From Campylobacterales bacterium (lineage in GTDB: Bacteria; Campylobacterota; Campylobacteria; Campylobacterales; Hydrogenimonadaceae), in the NCBI GenBank assembly GCA_026986055.1, contig JALSPH010000170.1, forward strand, positions 1-10,286: a stretch of 10,286 bases of DNA, read 5' to 3'. The notes under the pieces are model-generated. The model did not search any database and had not been told where the DNA came from. It saw only the letters and a list, made by a program, of their open reading frames with translations. Within the stretch, counting starts at the first letter, position 1; every line of letters begins with the position of its first letter. A program made the translations under genes and the position numbers. Positions 113 through 6,559 of the stretch are shown here, piece by piece.

Positions 113-2128
113 TCAAACGACATAGATAGTAGGCACTATAAGCGGATAGCGCTTCATCTTTCTGAGAACATGCTTTCTAACTGCCTGCCTTATGTCGTTC
201 TCTATGGTTCTGGTATCGAGACTTTGGACATCTTTTTGGTGGGCCATATAGGTCTCTATGATGGCTTCGATCTCTTTTGCGAACTTCCTGTCATCTTTAT
301 CGGGCACTATTCCGAAGCTGCTGACACGCGGATGGCCTATGAGTTTGTGTGTATTCTGGTCTATCTGTGCGACTATCATGATGATACCCTCGGTGGCCAG
401 CTTCTGCCTGTCGAGCACTATATCGTTCTCTATCTGGGTATTTGCCTGGTTGTCTATGTAGGTTTTGCCGGTCTTTATAGTCTTGACCTTCTTTAGGTAC
501 TTTGGAGTAAGCTCCACCTGGTCGCCGTCACTCATCAAGAGAATGTTTCGCTCATCCACTCCGCACGCTACGGCCGTTTTGGCGTGGCGGGCTATGTGGT
601 TGTACTCGCCGTGCACAGGCAGGAAAAACTTGGGCTGAGTGAGCCTTAGCATAAGTTTTTGCTCCTCCTGGGCGGCGTGACCTGAGACGTGTATCTCGCT
701 GAAATCCTGATAAGCCACCGTAGCTCCCGCTTTTATCAGGTGGTTCATGATGCGCGAAACGCTCGCTTCGTTGCCTGGAATCGCCTTTGCCGATATTATG
801 ATGGTATCGGAAGGCTTTATCTTGATATGCCTGTGTTCGTCGGTAGCCATCCTAAATAGTGCGCTCATAGTTTCGCCCTGGCTTCCGGTCGTGACTATAA
901 GAACTTCGCTGTCGTTGTACTTGGTGACCTCATGGGCATCTATGAATATATCTTCGGGTATATCTATATAACCAAGCTGCCTTGCGGTTTCAAGGTTTCT
1001 CTCCATCGACCTTCCGATAACCGCTACCTTTCTGTTGTACTTGATGCCGTGCTCTATGGCCTGATAGACCCTGTGAACGTTTGAGGAGAAAGTCGACATA
1101 ATGACTCTCCCTTTGGCTTTGGCGAAGAGGTGGTCAAAAGTCGGCCCCACCGTCTTTTCGCTTCTGGTAATGCCGGGCTTATGGGAGTTTGTGCTGTCTG
1201 AAAGAAGACACAAAACACCCTTTTCGCCATAGTATGCCAGCCTCTGCAGGTCTGCAGGGTAGTTGTCTACGGGAGTATGGTCTATCTTGAAATCCCCGGT
1301 ATGTATGATGATGCCGGCGGGTGTGTTTATGGCCAAAGAGGAGGCATCTATGATGGAGTGGGTCATGTGAATCCACTCGACTTCGAAATCCCCTATCTTT
1401 ATAGGCTTTCTCTTCTCGATATACCTGAAGTAACTCTTGTCGTTTTTCAAGCCATGCTCGTCGAATTTGTTGGCAATCATACCCAAGGGCAGGGGAGTTC
1501 CGTATATGGGGAACTTCAACTCTTTGAAAAGGTAGGGCACCGCACCTATATGGTCTTCGTGGGCATGAGTTATGACAATCCCGGCGATTTTGTCTTTAAT
1601 GGCGTGAAGATAGCTGAAGTCCGGAACGAGTATGTCTACTCCATGCATATCTTCGGTTGGGAAGCTCATCCCCACATCTATGACTATGGCGCTATTTTCA
1701 GTCTCCAAAACCGCAATGTTCCCGCCTATTTCGCCAAGACCGCCTAAAGGGGTGAAACGAACACGAGCTTTGTTGCTCGTATCGATCTTAGCTGCAGTCT
1801 CCAGGCGCTCTCTATGCACCTCTTTGTTGGCTGCGATAGCCTGGTTTATATCGGTATATACTCCATCGGCACTTCTTTTTACATTTGCGGGAGTCTTGTA
1901 GTGAGACTCCGGGTTTCTACCGTTTCCTCTGCCTCTACCTCTTTGGCCGCCGCGTCCTCGCTGCCCGCCTCTTTGCCTGTTCTGTCCGCCCTGTTGCGGC
2001 TGCCTCTGACCGCTTTTTTGACCGCCGTTTTGAGGCCTTCTCGGTCTGCGGTTGCCGCTCTTTTGGCTACCGTTCCCTTCGCTGTTTCTGGGTTGATTTC
2101 CCTGGTTCTCGCTCTTTTTTTCTTCCAT
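113..2128 (-). CDS. rnj: Ribonuclease J (metallo-beta-lactamase/beta-CASP family)
   Basis: RNase J is a zinc-dependent 5'-3' exonuclease and endonuclease in mRNA decay and rRNA maturation. In H. pylori it pairs with a DEAD-box helicase as a minimal RNA degradosome. Numbered from the ATG at 2128 (671 aa), residues 1 to about 120 are a disordered Gln/Arg/Gly/Asn-rich tail with an RG/RGG run at 48-68. The metallo-beta-lactamase core follows: metal motif HAHEDH at 188-193, further ligands H257 (MTHS) and D279 (TGDF). The beta-CASP part includes SGHA at 482-485, and PVHGEY lies at 504-509. The C-terminus ends LIVPTIYVV. Upstream GTG at 2137 would add three residues, but AAGGTGAT (2133-2140) is well placed only for the ATG. 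The 5' end overlaps ksgA by 62 nt. The long tail is typical of Campylobacterota RNase J and is absent from Bacillus enzymes. Confidence 0.95.
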   Translation of the reverse strand: MEEKKSENQGNQPRNSEGNGSQKSGNRRPRRPQNGGQKSGQRQPQQGGQNRQRGGQRGRGGQRGRGRGNGRNPESHYKTPANVKRSADGVYTDINQAIAANKEVHRERLETAAKIDTSNKARVRFTPLGGLGEIGGNIAVLETENSAIVIDVGMSFPTEDMHGVDILVPDFSYLHAIKDKIAGIVITHAHEDHIGAVPYLFKELKFPIYGTPLPLGMIANKFDEHGLKNDKSYFRYIEKRKPIKIGDFEVEWIHMTHSIIDASSLAINTPAGIIIHTGDFKIDHTPVDNYPADLQRLAYYGEKGVLCLLSDSTNSHKPGITRSEKTVGPTFDHLFAKAKGRVIMSTFSSNVHRVYQAIEHGIKYNRKVAVIGRSMERNLETARQLGYIDIPEDIFIDAHEVTKYNDSEVLIVTTGSQGETMSALFRMATDEHRHIKIKPSDTIIISAKAIPGNEASVSRIMNHLIKAGATVAYQDFSEIHVSGHAAQEEQKLMLRLTQPKFFLPVHGEYNHIARHAKTAVACGVDERNILLMSDGDQVELTPKYLKKVKTIKTGKTYIDNQANTQIENDIVLDRQKLATEGIIMIVAQIDQNTHKLIGHPRVSSFGIVPDKDDRKFAKEIEAIIETYMAHQKDVQSLDTRTIENDIRQAVRKHVLRKMKRYPLIVPTIYVV

Positions 2129-2933
2129 CAATATCACCTTGCAATATATTATTTAGGTGGTGATAGAGGGATGTTTCCACTTCATGAGGTCTTACAGAAG
2201 AGGCCAGGCCCAGTGTGGAGAGCGCCTTCTCTACATCTTTTTTGTCAAAAGCGGCGGAAAGATTTTTCGCCAGCCTCTTTCGCGGCTGCGTAAAAGCCAC
2301 TCTCAAAAAATCTTCAAACCCGGGATCGTCAAGCGAATCCCACTTTTGAATCTGAAGCACCGACGACATCACTTTGGGGGCCGGAACGAAAGCTTCAGGA
2401 GGCACATCGAAGCAGATATGCACCTCCGCGCAGCTTTGAGCCAGAACCGAAAGGGCGCAAAACTGCTTCTCTTTCGGTTTCGCGCTGAACTTTTCGGCCA
2501 CCTCTTTCTGCACCATGACAAGCATGCTTTTGCAGTTTGGGTCCTTCAGCGCCCTCAAAATAATATTCGTAGCGATGTAGTAGGGCAGGTTGGCGACGAG
2601 GTGATACCCCCCGTCCGCCAGACTCTCCCGCTTCCAGTGGTCCAGAACATCACCGCAATGCAGCTTCAGCTTCCCGTTTTCTAAAGAAGCTGCAAACTTT
2701 TTACGAAGATGCTCGCAAAGCTCTCTGTCCACCTCATAAGCGGTGACATCCTTAATCTCGACCAGATGTCTGGTCAAATCACCTAATCCAGGCCCAATCT
2801 CCACGACCGGGAGCTCATCTTTGGGCATCGATTCGATGATTTTGTAGAGTACACTCTCATCTTTCAAAAAGTTTTGGCCAAATCTCTTTTTGGCTATTTT
2901 TTCACTACTCTTATGAGAATTGGATTTAATCAT
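2067..2933 (-). CDS. ksgA: 16S rRNA dimethyladenosine transferase KsgA (RsmA)
   Basis: KsgA uses S-adenosylmethionine to dimethylate two adjacent adenines near the 3' end of 16S rRNA (A1518/A1519 in E. coli numbering), a late quality step in 30S assembly. Motifs in this 288-aa protein: KKRFGQNFL (15-23), the SAM loop EIGPGLGDLT (45-54), acidic E67 and D95 in the cofactor region, the catalytic NLPYYI (115-120), and VPPEAFVPAPKV (177-188). The C-terminal rRNA-binding helical domain follows. The start is the only early ATG; the site before it is weak (AAGAAAAG). Normal family length is about 265-275. The last 20 or so residues are a very charged, low-complexity extension (RKKEREPGKS...) encoded where the frame overlaps the start of rnj. 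It is probably the first gene of an operon, behind a -10 box at 3026-3031. Confidence 0.96.
   Translation of the reverse strand: MIKSNSHKSSEKIAKKRFGQNFLKDESVLYKIIESMPKDELPVVEIGPGLGDLTRHLVEIKDVTAYEVDRELCEHLRKKFAASLENGKLKLHCGDVLDHWKRESLADGGYHLVANLPYYIATNIILRALKDPNCKSMLVMVQKEVAEKFSAKPKEKQFCALSVLAQSCAEVHICFDVPPEAFVPAPKVMSSVLQIQKWDSLDDPGFEDFLRVAFTQPRKRLAKNLSAAFDKKDVEKALSTLGLASSVRPHEVETSLYHHLNNILQGDIDGRKKEREPGKSTQKQRRER
2133..2140 (-). promoter_or_regulatory. Ribosome binding site of rnj, inside ksgA
   Basis: Read on the minus strand, AAGGTGAT sits four bases before the ATG at 2128 (AAGG itself is eight bases before it) and overlaps the alternative GTG at 2137. It therefore favours the ATG. The site lies within the ksgA reading frame, so ribosomes finishing ksgA pass over it, which suggests translational coupling. 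Confidence 0.6.
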
Positions 2934-3163: not shown

Positions 3164-3925
3164 TTGGAAACATTTGCAAAACGCATAATCCCGTGCCTTG
3201 ACGTCAAAGATGGAAGAGTTGTCAAAGGTGTCAACTTTGTAGGGCTTAAAGATGCCGGAGACCCGGTAGAGGTAGCGAAGCGCTACAATGAAGAGGGGGC
3301 CGACGAAGTTACATTTCTCGACATAACGGCTAGTCATGAAAACAGAGACACTATCGTTCATATAGTGGAAGAGGTGGCAAAAGAGGTTTTCATTCCGTTG
3401 ACGGTTGGGGGCGGAATACGCAAACTTGAAGATATATACGCTCTTCTGAATGTCGGGTGCGACAAGGTAAGTGTCAACTCGGCTGCCATAAAACGGCCTG
3501 AATTCATCGACGAGGGGGCAAAGCGCTTCGGCTCCCAATGTATCGTAGTGGCGATAGATGCAAAACGTGTTGCCCCGGGAAAATGGAACGTCTTCATCAA
3601 CGGAGGGCGCATTGACACGGGCATTGACGTTTTGGAGTGGGCTAAAGAGGTAGTCGACAGGGGTGCAGGCGAAATACTTCTCACTTCAATGGACGCCGAC
3701 GGCACCAAAGAGGGTTACGACAACGAGCTAAACAGTGCCGTAGGCAGATCTGTGCATGTACCCGTCATCGCCAGCGGAGGCGCAGGTACTATGGAGCATA
3801 TAAAGGAGGCTTTCGAAGCTGGAGCCGACGCAGCGCTCGCAGCCTCCATCTTCCACTTCAAAGAGATCGACATAATGGACCTCAAGCGCTACCTCAAAAG
3901 TCACAATATACCGGTAAGATTATGA
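3164..3925 (+). CDS. hisF: Imidazole glycerol phosphate synthase cyclase subunit HisF
   Basis: HisF is the cyclase half of the HisH-HisF enzyme. It uses ammonia from the HisH glutaminase to turn PRFAR into imidazole glycerol phosphate (histidine pathway) and AICAR (returned to purine synthesis). The protein is 253 aa, the usual size, and a complete (beta/alpha)8 barrel. It shows [12 protein letters not shown] with catalytic D13, FLDITAS (51-57), phosphate loop VGGGIRK (81-87), VVAIDAKRV with catalytic D132, [15 protein letters not shown] (172-186) and IASGGAG (202-208). The start is TTG at 3164, since the family begins only a few residues before [10 protein letters not shown] and no ATG is nearby; purine-rich AAGAGAGAAAGAG precedes it. 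No hisH or other his gene is adjacent. The stop overlaps the next gene by 4 nt (ATGA). Confidence 0.97.
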
Positions 3926-4509
3926 TAGTGTCGGCAGGCAACATGGAGACCTTTCCATTCGCCGTACCCATAGGGATTGGCCTTTGTGAAAGCGCTGTAA
4001 ACCTTACCCGCCTTGCTCTTATGCAGCCGCCGGAATTTATCCTTTTTGTCGGAAGCGCCGGAACATATGGAAGACATGAGATTTTCGAGATAGTTGAGTC
4101 CAAAGCGGCCTGTCAGATTGAGCTCTCCTATCTTCAAAAACAGAGCTACACACCGCTTGAAAACAATTTGATAGTCTCAGATGAAAATGTTTCACGTGAA
4201 ACACCCATCTCATCTCTCTCTTCAGGAAGCAAACCTTCCATTGTCAACTCGAGCAACTACATATCGACAGATATTAAAACCGCTTCCAAGTTGAATAGAC
4301 TTGGAATAGGACTTGAGAATATGGAGTTCTATTCGGTGATGACTGTAGCCAAAATGTTCGAGATTCCATGTGGAGGAATCTTCGTAATAACCAACAGATG
4401 CGATGAGAATGCTCATAAGGATTTTTTGATAAACCATGAAAAAGCGATGTACGCGCTTGTAAAACATCTACAAAAAAGGGTGCCTAACCTTGACAAATTC
4501 AATACTTGA
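3922..4509 (+). CDS. Short nucleoside phosphorylase-like protein (NP_I/MTAN superfamily)
   Basis: The 195-aa protein keeps three superfamily landmarks: the glycine loop [10 protein letters not shown] (41-50), the ribose-binding acidic stretch [10 protein letters not shown] (130-139; compare VEME in MTA/SAH nucleosidase), and an [13 protein letters not shown] segment (156-168) where the base-binding Asp (D161) is expected. Relatives cleave or phosphorolyse purine nucleosides, or MTA and SAH in methyl-group salvage. This copy is about 35 residues shorter than MTAN because its N-terminal segment is compressed, so substrate and activity are uncertain. The Ser-rich loop at about 86-108 holds VSRET, written by a parS site. 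The ATG overlaps the hisF stop, and the 3' end overlaps rlmN by 20 nt. Campylobacter, as I recall it, also has such a gene before rlmN. Confidence 0.75.
4188..4203. other. parS: parS centromere site (ParB binding), copy 1
   Basis: TGTTTCACGTGAAACA is a perfect 16-bp palindrome, identical to the bacterial chromosomal parS consensus bound by ParB/Spo0J. It lies inside the phosphorylase-like gene, covering the last base of codon 89 through codon 94 (V-S-R-E-T). ParB loads here, spreads along the DNA and works with ParA/Soj and SMC in origin segregation. Confidence 0.9.
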
Positions 4510-5554
4510 CTTTACGCAAGAGGAGCTTGAAAAGCTATTTCCTCCAAAATTCAGGGCCAAACAGATTTACAACTGGATCTATCAACAACATGTTGACACT
4601 TTTGACGAGATGGAAAACATTCCAAAAAAGATGCGCAGTGAACTCGCCGAAAAGTTTTCTATTTCACCTCTTGAAAAGGTACAGAAGCAGATAAGCAGCG
4701 ACGGAAGTATCAAATATCTTTTTCGACTGCAAGACGGACACACTATAGAATCGGTTCTTTTGAAGATGAAAGATGCTGAGTACGATGAAAAAGGTGAGCT
4801 GCTACACCACGCAAAATATACCGTCTGCGTCTCGAGTCAGGTGGGTTGCAAAGTAGGGTGTGCATTTTGTCTTACCGCAAAAGGTGGATTTATCCGAAAT
4901 CTTACACCAGGTGAAATCGTAGGACAAGTTCTCGAGATCAAAAAAGATAACGATATAGCAAGCAACAGGCGTGTCAATATTGTCTATATGGGTATGGGAG
5001 AGCCCCTTGACAACCTCGACAATCTTGCCAAGGCTATCAAGATATTCTCAAACGAAAATGGACTCAGTATTTCACCGAAGCGTCAAACGGTGTCAACGAG
5101 TGGCATTAGTACGAAGATCAAAAAACTCGGCAATATGGAGCTCGGAGTTCAGTTGGCAATCAGTCTACATGCCGTTGACGATGAGTTAAGAGAAGAGTTG
5201 ATACCTATGAACAAAGCCTACAATATCGCTTCCATAATAGAAGCCGTAAAAGAGTTTCCTGTCAATACCAGAAAACGCGTGATGTTCGAATATCTTGTCA
5301 TCAAGGATGTCAATGATGACATAGTTAGCGCCAAGAAACTCATCAAACTTCTTGAAGGGATTAAATCTAAAGTCAACCTCATTTACTTCAATCCATACCC
5401 GGGCACAACTTTTAAGCGTCCTGAACCGGAAAAAATGAGGAGATTTCAGGAGTACCTTTTGAGTAAAGGGGTTCTTTGTACTATCAGAGAATCGAAAGGT
5501 ATAGATATTAGCGCTGCCTGTGGGCAGCTTAGAGAGCAGGAGCTGTCAAGATGA
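4490..5554 (+). CDS. rlmN: Dual-specificity 23S rRNA/tRNA (adenine-C2) methyltransferase RlmN
   Basis: RlmN is a radical-SAM enzyme that methylates C2 of adenine 2503 in 23S rRNA and adenine 37 in some tRNAs, supporting translational accuracy. The 354-aa protein has an N-terminal RNA-binding region ([13 protein letters not shown] start, [10 protein letters not shown] at 22-31). The iron-sulphur motif CxxxCxxC is C120, C124, C127. GMGEPLDN (168-175) is the SAM-contacting segment. The two mechanistic cysteines are C113, seven before the cluster as in E. coli, and C344 in SAACGQL, the methyl-carrying position. The start is TTG at 4490 with AAGGG nine bases upstream, inside the 3' end of the preceding gene (20-nt overlap). 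The stop overlaps the next ATG as ATGA. GC is visibly lower than in purB and nrdA. Confidence 0.96.
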
Positions 5555-5643
5555 GTTATACCGATTATGGACTTATACTATTTTTGATTCTAGTGGTCAT
5601 TGTGGGAGTAGGTGGCTTCATCATGGCTAACAGAGAGGATTGA
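5551..5643 (+). CDS. 30-residue single-span hydrophobic membrane mini-protein
   Basis: The ATG overlaps the rlmN stop (ATGA), an arrangement that suggests translational coupling. The 30-codon frame starts MSYTDYGL, runs through about 18 hydrophobic residues (roughly 8-25, rich in Leu, Ile, Val and Gly), and ends in a short charged tail (ANRED). That is the layout of a small single-pass membrane protein, although the flanking charges do not fix its orientation. No signal peptidase site is evident. Its last 17 bases overlap the 3' end of the convergent pseudouridine synthase gene. I recall a small hydrophobic gene in the same place after rlmN in Campylobacter jejuni, which supports a real gene, but its function is unknown to me. 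Confidence 0.7.
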
Positions 5644-6559
5644 CTCTTATCTCTGGTGGCGAAATTCTCTCTTTCTCTTTTTCAAAATCTATCCGAGACA
5701 CCACTCTGTAGAACACATCCCTATAGCTGAACGAGAGCTCTTGTGCATGCAGCATAAGTCGTGAAGCTCCCATATATCTCATTCGTTCATCCACATCCAA
5801 AACTCTGTCGAGATACTTTATGGCAACCTCCGTCGGAACTCCGTATATAGGATCACCAAGTATCGGATGTTTCACGTGAAACAGATGGACTCGTATCTGG
5901 TGTTGCCTTCCTGTATATGGAACTACTTTTAGAAGAGTCGCATCCAGCTCTTGATCATATTTGAGCGGTTTGAAATGGGTCAAAGAGGGCTTTCCTGAAG
6001 GGTCGACGACCATTTTCAGCTTTATTGTGGAAAAATCTTCATTTCTGGAGAGGGGAACGTCAACCTTGAAAGGGCTATCTATACGGCCACGAACCCATGC
6101 AAGATAACTCTTTTTTACCCCTCTTGACTCGAACATCATCTTCAGCTCTCTTTCGGAGGTTTTACCTCTCGAAGCAAGAACCAGACCGCTTGTCTCCATA
6201 TCTATGCGATGAATATTGTTGGCGTTTTTACCATAGTAGTGCCTGATGTCATCGAGTAGAGAGTAGGGTGTTTTATGGGTCTTCGGATGGACAAGCAGAC
6301 CACTCGGTTTGTCAAAAAGTCCGAAATCTGGTGTGGTGAAGATGGGAGATACACCCTGAGACTGCGGAATGAACTCTTGAACAACTATATCTCCGCAAAT
6401 TTTTTTGCCGCTATGAAGACACGTCTCTCCATTTACGATAAGTCGTCTCATTGCGACAATTTTTTGCGCTTGGCCCTGAGTTACACCAAGTTTTCTCATC
6501 AGAAAAAGAAAGGCAGGCATCGGAGTATCGAGTCTATACTCGACGTTTTGAAAGGCCAT
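5627..6559 (-). CDS. RluA/RluD-family pseudouridine synthase with S4 domain
   Basis: This enzyme isomerises uridine to pseudouridine in structured RNA, probably 23S rRNA. The protein is 310 aa. An S4 RNA-binding domain occupies about residues 13-61 (LGVTQGQAQKIVAMRRLIVNG). Then come FDKPSGLLVHP (82-92), the catalytic HRIDMETSGLVL with D120, and the late GRQHQIRVHLFHVKHPILGD (217-236). Start ATG 6559 has AGAGG nine bases upstream. The target uridines cannot be read from sequence, so no rlu symbol is given. Codons 226-231 (LFHVKH) contain the second parS site. The family tolerates varied residues between RVHL and HPILGD, so the site fits without breaking the fold. It is the convergent neighbour of rlmN and divergent from purB. 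Campylobacter jejuni, as I recall, has a similar gene directly before purB-nrdA. Confidence 0.9.
   Translation of the reverse strand: MAFQNVEYRLDTPMPAFLFLMRKLGVTQGQAQKIVAMRRLIVNGETCLHSGKKICGDIVVQEFIPQSQGVSPIFTTPDFGLFDKPSGLLVHPKTHKTPYSLLDDIRHYYGKNANNIHRIDMETSGLVLASRGKTSERELKMMFESRGVKKSYLAWVRGRIDSPFKVDVPLSRNEDFSTIKLKMVVDPSGKPSLTHFKPLKYDQELDATLLKVVPYTGRQHQIRVHLFHVKHPILGDPIYGVPTEVAIKYLDRVLDVDERMRYMGASRLMLHAQELSFSYRDVFYRVVSRIDFEKEKERISPPEIRVNPLC
5868..5883. other. parS: parS centromere site (ParB binding), copy 2
   Basis: This is a second exact TGTTTCACGTGAAACA, 1,680 bp from the first. It lies in the pseudouridine synthase gene and supplies codons for residues 226-231 (L-F-H-V-K-H). A perfect 16-mer occurring twice in 10 kb is not expected by chance. 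Confidence 0.9.

Follow-up and report, generated by a model that had tools for sequence, protein, structure and literature searches.

Two perfect parS palindromes within the coding sequences of two unrelated genes, the very probable centromere of a Hydrogenimonas-like bacterium

Bacteria separate their chromosomes with the aid of a DNA tag, parS, and the locus described here raises the question of what a copy of this tag does inside a protein-coding gene and whether it has helped to write the protein. The window, i.e. the whole stretch of 10,286 nucleotides that was analyzed, belongs to a draft genome (1,687,265 bases in 281 contigs, 83% complete) whose closest named relatives include Hydrogenimonas contigs. 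At 4188-4203 it contains TGTTTCACGTGAAACA, a perfect 16-bp palindrome with no mismatches to the parS consensus used for comparison (the generally known form, which is also the one given in the original prediction). The original prediction of a perfect parS at this position is upheld but was incomplete, a second, identical copy at 5868-5883, inside the gene for an RluA-family pseudouridine synthase, having been overlooked. The two copies, neither of which is assigned a strand, are the only matches in the window at up to three mismatches; they are also the only sites at up to two mismatches in the genome when this is scanned for the 16-mer, the check that had been suggested, and at 1.68 kb apart they are not scattered. 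We consider, with a probability of roughly 0.93, that the two palindromes constitute the chromosomal centromere (parS) of a Hydrogenimonas-like bacterium, at which ParB would bind in the course of segregation. The observations underlying this reading are the sequence identity and copy number of the sites, the presence of ParA and of a ParB with the reported contact residues, proximity to the origin in relatives, homologous positions within genes of several families, and codon bias.

The first site is located in an open reading frame at 3922-4509 (plus strand), which encodes a 195-residue protein of the nucleosidase/phosphorylase superfamily. The protein matches the PNP_UDP_1 family, and its predicted structure has an MTAN-like fold, resembling H. 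pylori MTAN/futalosine hydrolase (14-21% identity among the 50 matches shown), in agreement with the initial description of the host gene as phosphorylase-like. The palindrome is read as GTT TCA CGT GAA ACA, corresponding to Val90-Ser91-Arg92-Glu93-Thr94, so that the proposed V-S-R-E-T frame is the correct one and the site is not intergenic. In the structural model, pLDDT falls below 50 over three or more consecutive residues only at 88-104, and the loop encoded by the site is therefore predicted to be disordered. It should be noted that the protein is shorter than the listed MTAN chains despite its MTAN-like predicted fold. In 20 aligned proteins, residues 157-158 are an invariant Thr-Asn pair, at the place where MTAN enzymes may have the catalytic Asp; the reaction of the nucleosidase may differ from that of MTAN.

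The second site lies within the synthase gene (5627-6559, minus strand), where it encodes residues 227-230, Phe227-His228-Val229-Lys230, between the HQIRVHL and HPILGD motifs; the minus-strand reading, with its flanking residues, is (L)-F-H-V-K-(H). RluD of PDB entry 1v9f has AHIT where the synthase has FHVK. One frame of the palindrome is closed by a TGA; the other two are open, and each host gene uses a different one of these. The nucleosidase gene is preceded by hisF (3164-3925, plus strand), whose stop overlaps the nucleosidase start, and at its end it overlaps the start of rlmN (4490-5554, plus strand), which is situated between the two sites. The stop of rlmN in turn overlaps the start of a 30-residue hydrophobic open reading frame at 5551-5643 (plus strand). 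Many congeners, and some relatives belonging to other families, have small hydrophobic frames of this kind at the corresponding position, and in other relatives the automated scan of open reading frames missed or mis-framed it. The 30-residue frame may be an overlooked coupled microprotein. A separate feature of the window is the long N-terminal extension, rich in Arg, Gly, Gln, and Asn, of the RNase J encoded at 113-2137 (minus strand); the tblastn match begins only past this extension in several relatives.

A parB/spo0J gene, whose absence the original prediction had named as evidence against it, was found in the genome. There is a single TIGR00180 match (190 bits, cut-off 58), its product has ParB_N and HTH_ParB domains, and a gene for a ParA-type ATPase lies directly upstream (AAA_31, 232 bits; CbiA/MinD/ParA nucleotide-binding domain, 101 bits), which matched no NCBIfam model at E ≤1e-40. 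The parA-parB pair is located at positions 3589-5272 of locus L055, and its further neighbors, judged by their translations, look like fmt, birA, and atp genes; because of these neighbors, and the genome being a draft, we infer that parB is chromosomal. The ParB aligns with PDB entry 4umk (E 7e-64), presumably the H. pylori ParB. According to PMC11229316, the residues of H. pylori ParB that contact parS are Arg159, Asn164, Lys190, Arg215, and Glu218, and all five are matched in 36 of the 36 ParBs compared, including the one encoded in the genome of the window; Arg159, Asn164, and Lys190 were placed by alignment to 4umk and Arg215 and Glu218 by ungapped counting, and the comparison left out the second and weaker ParB-like matches (L111-L113 and L358-L360). 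The H. pylori parS oligonucleotide given there is TGTTCCACGTGAAACA, the same palindrome at 15 of 16 bases, and the ParB is of the same family with the same contact residues; what sets the window apart is that both of its sites are perfect and intragenic.

The mechanism that we propose has ParB, encoded elsewhere in the genome beside ParA, recognizing each half-site through its helix-turn-helix, after which it would load as a CTP clamp and slide over the hisF-purB region, and ParA would move this origin-proximal segment to the daughter cells. Loading as a CTP clamp and movement driven by ParA are the established mechanism of ParABS systems; ParB binding and loading at these particular sites, and their role in segregation, are what we infer for this organism.

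The position of the sites relative to dnaA in related genomes is consistent with such a role. dnaA was found in all 17 genomes searched, and in 14 of them it is on one contig with the sites, at a distance of 2.8-68 kb in every case; the site pair is 46-68 kb from dnaA in six genomes of the Hydrogenimonas group (G001, G002, G003, G008, G010, and G016), and the sites are 2.8-66 kb from it in the eight others. These distances were counted across the start of a contig taken as circular for G002 and G024, and the genome of the window, G050, and G055 (sites on C51, dnaA on C24) fall outside the 14. The contig of the window carries no dnaA, this gene being on another contig of the genome, and the proximity of the sites to the origin in the organism itself, although probable, is therefore taken from relatives. 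The original prediction had called for copies gathered near the origin as opposed to scattered around the chromosome; two copies were found, and these are close to dnaA in the related genomes that have both on one contig. GC skew in G002 (20 sampled stretches) is positive in 11 of 11 stretches between 2 kb and 1.15 Mb, and 8 of the remaining 9 are negative, indicating a switch near dnaA. The stretch that contains the sites, however, has a skew of +0.028 on an arm where 8 of 9 samples are negative, which counts against the proposal. In the same congener parB is 627 kb from dnaA, so that the ParABS genes and the sites are unlinked.

The palindrome is widespread in relatives. It is present at one mismatch or fewer in 51 of 60 genomes (that of the window and 59 relatives), as compared with 4 of 60 for the reversed control, and at the same tolerance the 18 genomes of the genus contain two sites in 13 cases, one in 4, and none in 1. 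Three of the single-site genomes (G007, G013, and G017) have contigs that stop short of the second gene, and the remaining one (G011) has its other site at two mismatches. It should be recognized that all such counts are over related genomes and hence not independent. Because picking loci by parS itself was to be avoided, loci were chosen with a nucleosidase profile, which gave 198 hits in 200 genomes, all drawn from the order of the window. Set A consists of 80 loci among the matches listed, with smaller families favored. For set C, the best 80 of 552 relatives were taken from a named collection; many of these carry the title Sulfurimonas or Helicobacteraceae. The strict count admits distinct genes without internal stops and sites at homologous codons, in the same frame, with no more than two mismatches. 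By this count, the homologous in-frame site is present in 55 of 78 nucleosidase genes of set A (38 with at most one mismatch, 5 perfect) and in 37 of 40 synthase genes (34 with at most one mismatch, 17 perfect); for the best 80 of 552 in set C the values are 21 of 75 and 40 of 43, respectively. Shuffled palindromes (50 drawn) matched a mean of 0.02 of 80 genes, with a maximum of 1.

The distribution of the nucleosidase site follows families. It occurs in 14 of 15 genes of family f10, 19 of 21 of f13, 9 of 9 of f20, 5 of 6 of f5, 3 of 4 of both f15 and f18, and in the one gene of f6, and it is rare or absent in f16 (1 of 14), f8 (0 of 3), and f14 (0 of 1). The synthase site is found in 10 of 10 genes of f10, 9 of 9 of f20, 4 of 4 of both f5 and f18, 10 of 12 of f16, and 0 of 1 of f6. 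In 10 of 14 stretches from f16 a site is located just upstream of hisF instead, and in two nucleosidase genes of f8 it is at the 3′ end of the gene, outside the strict count. On a tree of RlmN, the strict nucleosidase label (82 rows) requires 9 changes, as against a mean of 20.1 and a minimum of 17 in 100 shuffles, which indicates that the nucleosidase site tracks lineage and has been lost or regained several times. For the synthase label (45 rows), 3 changes are needed against a shuffled mean of 3.0, the tree being uninformative here because only 3 rows are without the site. Under looser labels (58 of 80 set A nucleosidase genes, including the two 3′-end sites of f8), the two sites of a genome are identical in 13 of 24 pairs, with a shuffled mean of 5.0, a result that owes most to f20 and does not count as independent evidence. 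The TGTTCCACGTGAAACA variant is in both host genes of 7 of 9 f20 relatives.

Not every genome conforms. In set A 6 of 80 stretches, and in set C 21 of 80, contain no site at two mismatches or fewer; short stretches are among these. Such a site is also lacking in 4 of 18 genomes with a ParB match (G012, G020, G030, and G057), and the same is true of G124. G020 has weaker ParB matches only and G030 has no nucleosidase match; neither feature accounts for the ParB-bearing G012 and G057. G037 and G054 have no ParB match and no site at one mismatch or fewer, with two and seven sites, respectively, at two mismatches. The seven palindrome-like sites of G054, on contig C1, are scattered, and the reversed control gives none; they are perhaps operators of another regulator. 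As a separate observation, five f10 relatives (G105, G206, G143, G122, and G108; loci L197, L198, L200, L206, and L208) use a third intragenic position: in addition to the nucleosidase site, a parS-like site with one mismatch lies within the start of their rlmN gene.

As each site is part of a reading frame, selection acting on ParB binding would also set residues, fixing the codons for V-S-R-E-T in the flexible nucleosidase loop and for F-H-V-K in the synthase, and the retention of parS at identical codons in many relatives indicates that the tag has a share in determining the protein sequences. The alternative is that the two peptides matter for the enzymes and that the match to parS is a by-product. 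Codon use, analyzed in sets A and C together with the window (154 nucleosidases and 84 synthases, with or without the site), bears on both. Of 176 nucleosidase columns, those for Arg, Val, and Ser depart most strongly from gene-wide codon use, at ranks 1-3 (CGT 92% versus 22%, GTT 98% versus 34%, and TCA 84% versus 22%), and that for Glu ranks 17; the Thr codon is unranked because its column is too gappy. In the synthase, the Val codon ranks 2 of 238 columns (GTG 96% versus 23%), the rank-1 column, which is the first, being probably the start codon, and the other site codons rank 4 (Leu), 7 (His), 15 (Lys), 56 (second His), and 200 (Phe).

The changes within the site differ between the two genes. 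Site-bearing nucleosidase genes show 69 codon changes, 45 of which alter the residue. The 24 silent ones are close in proportion to the 13 silent changes among the 45 possible single-base changes in these codons counted by hand, so that there is no clear excess of silent changes; this leaves room for some protein-level selection. Changes at the center of the palindrome replace Arg by His or Cys in several families, and in two f13 relatives (G188 and G230) a symmetric double change to TGTTCCACGTGGAACA converts V-S-R-E-T to V-P-R-G-T with the palindrome kept. Nucleosidases without the site mostly have unrelated loops, e.g. TDKKD, with one near-miss, VPRET. The original suggestion that the loop is shaped partly by a DNA-level function is thus supported by codon use, by these variants, and by the predicted disorder. 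In the synthase, 26 of 36 codon changes are silent and 10 alter the residue; the prevalence of silent changes suggests that selection may act at both the DNA and protein levels. In favor of a role for the peptide, FHVK is present in 114 of the best 120 of 7617 synthase homologues and the site adjoins conserved family motifs, but five of the six synthases without the site read AHIG, NHIG, FHIG, or LHVN at this place, the sixth having a gap. An explanation at the protein level is therefore weak for the nucleosidase and less so for the synthase, and to account for the locus it would need two unrelated proteins to require peptides that a single 16-mer encodes in two different frames; taken as a whole, we regard it as very unlikely. 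We regard both palindromes as very probably functional parS sites that lie within genes and are subject to selection at the DNA level.

A further possibility is that the palindrome is the operator of another factor, such as a Noc-like paralogue of ParB or a transcription regulator of hisF-rlmN. Second ParB-like matches exist in some relatives, the genes around the sites probably form a cluster that is transcribed together, and among NCBIfam models at E ≤1e-40 the highest-scoring match of the ParB is to Noc (TIGR04285, nucleoid_noc), but at 231.2 bits this is below the cut-off of 315, whereas the match to parB_part (189.5 bits) is above its cut-off of 58.45, and the genome has a single TIGR00180 match. 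Noc and its NBS site resemble the present system in comprising a ParB-fold protein and a related palindrome; the site in the window is parS and not NBS. According to PMC7383237, the position that is Arg173 in Caulobacter ParB is Gln in Noc. At the position equated with it through the shared K-S-R-x4-N pattern, Arg is present in 36 of 36 ParBs, that of the window's genome among them, and the Noc-type Gln in none. On the basis of this ParB-type specificity residue and the subthreshold TIGR04285 score, identity with Noc/NBS was rejected. In addition, the sites are inside reading frames, and G024 and G042 carry copies outside the two host genes that are still near dnaA, features that a centromere fits better than the operator of one operon; the probability of an operator is accordingly slight. 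Chance is a negligible explanation: matches at three mismatches in the genome are indeed at the level of a control (five further, as compared with seven at three or fewer for the reversed pattern), but 200 dinucleotide shuffles of the window gave a mean of 0.04 matches at three mismatches or fewer and two matches in none, homologous conservation spans several families, and the shuffles and the genome scan led to rejection of both chance and a repeat element.

Intragenic parS as such is already known; in Pseudomonas aeruginosa, 9 of 10 parS sites are predicted to be within coding sequences (PMC4368675). The likeness to the present case is in this location, and the portion of that report available makes no claim of the same codons in the same genes over a whole order. 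What may be new is that the site is fixed at homologous codons in two genes throughout families of an order; a search of the open-licence literature turned up no account of parS occupying fixed codons across the Campylobacterota. Such sites may, reportedly, be listed by Livny et al. (2007) and Lee et al. (2006).

The broader reading, which we hold with some reserve to be probable, is that the centromere of the order has long been held at fixed codons of two housekeeping genes, that the specificity of ParB, as opposed to enzyme function, wrote part of both proteins, and that both change with the centromere, as exemplified by TGTTCCACGTGAAACA in both host genes of the f20 relatives and by TGTTCCACGTGGAACA in the two f13 relatives. 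The locus would then offer a clear natural example in which a signal for chromosome segregation overrides protein coding, with the two unrelated frames as internal replicates. It predicts the location of the centromere in many Campylobacterales, and it implies that conserved residues at both protein sites are not simply to be taken as catalytic or structural.
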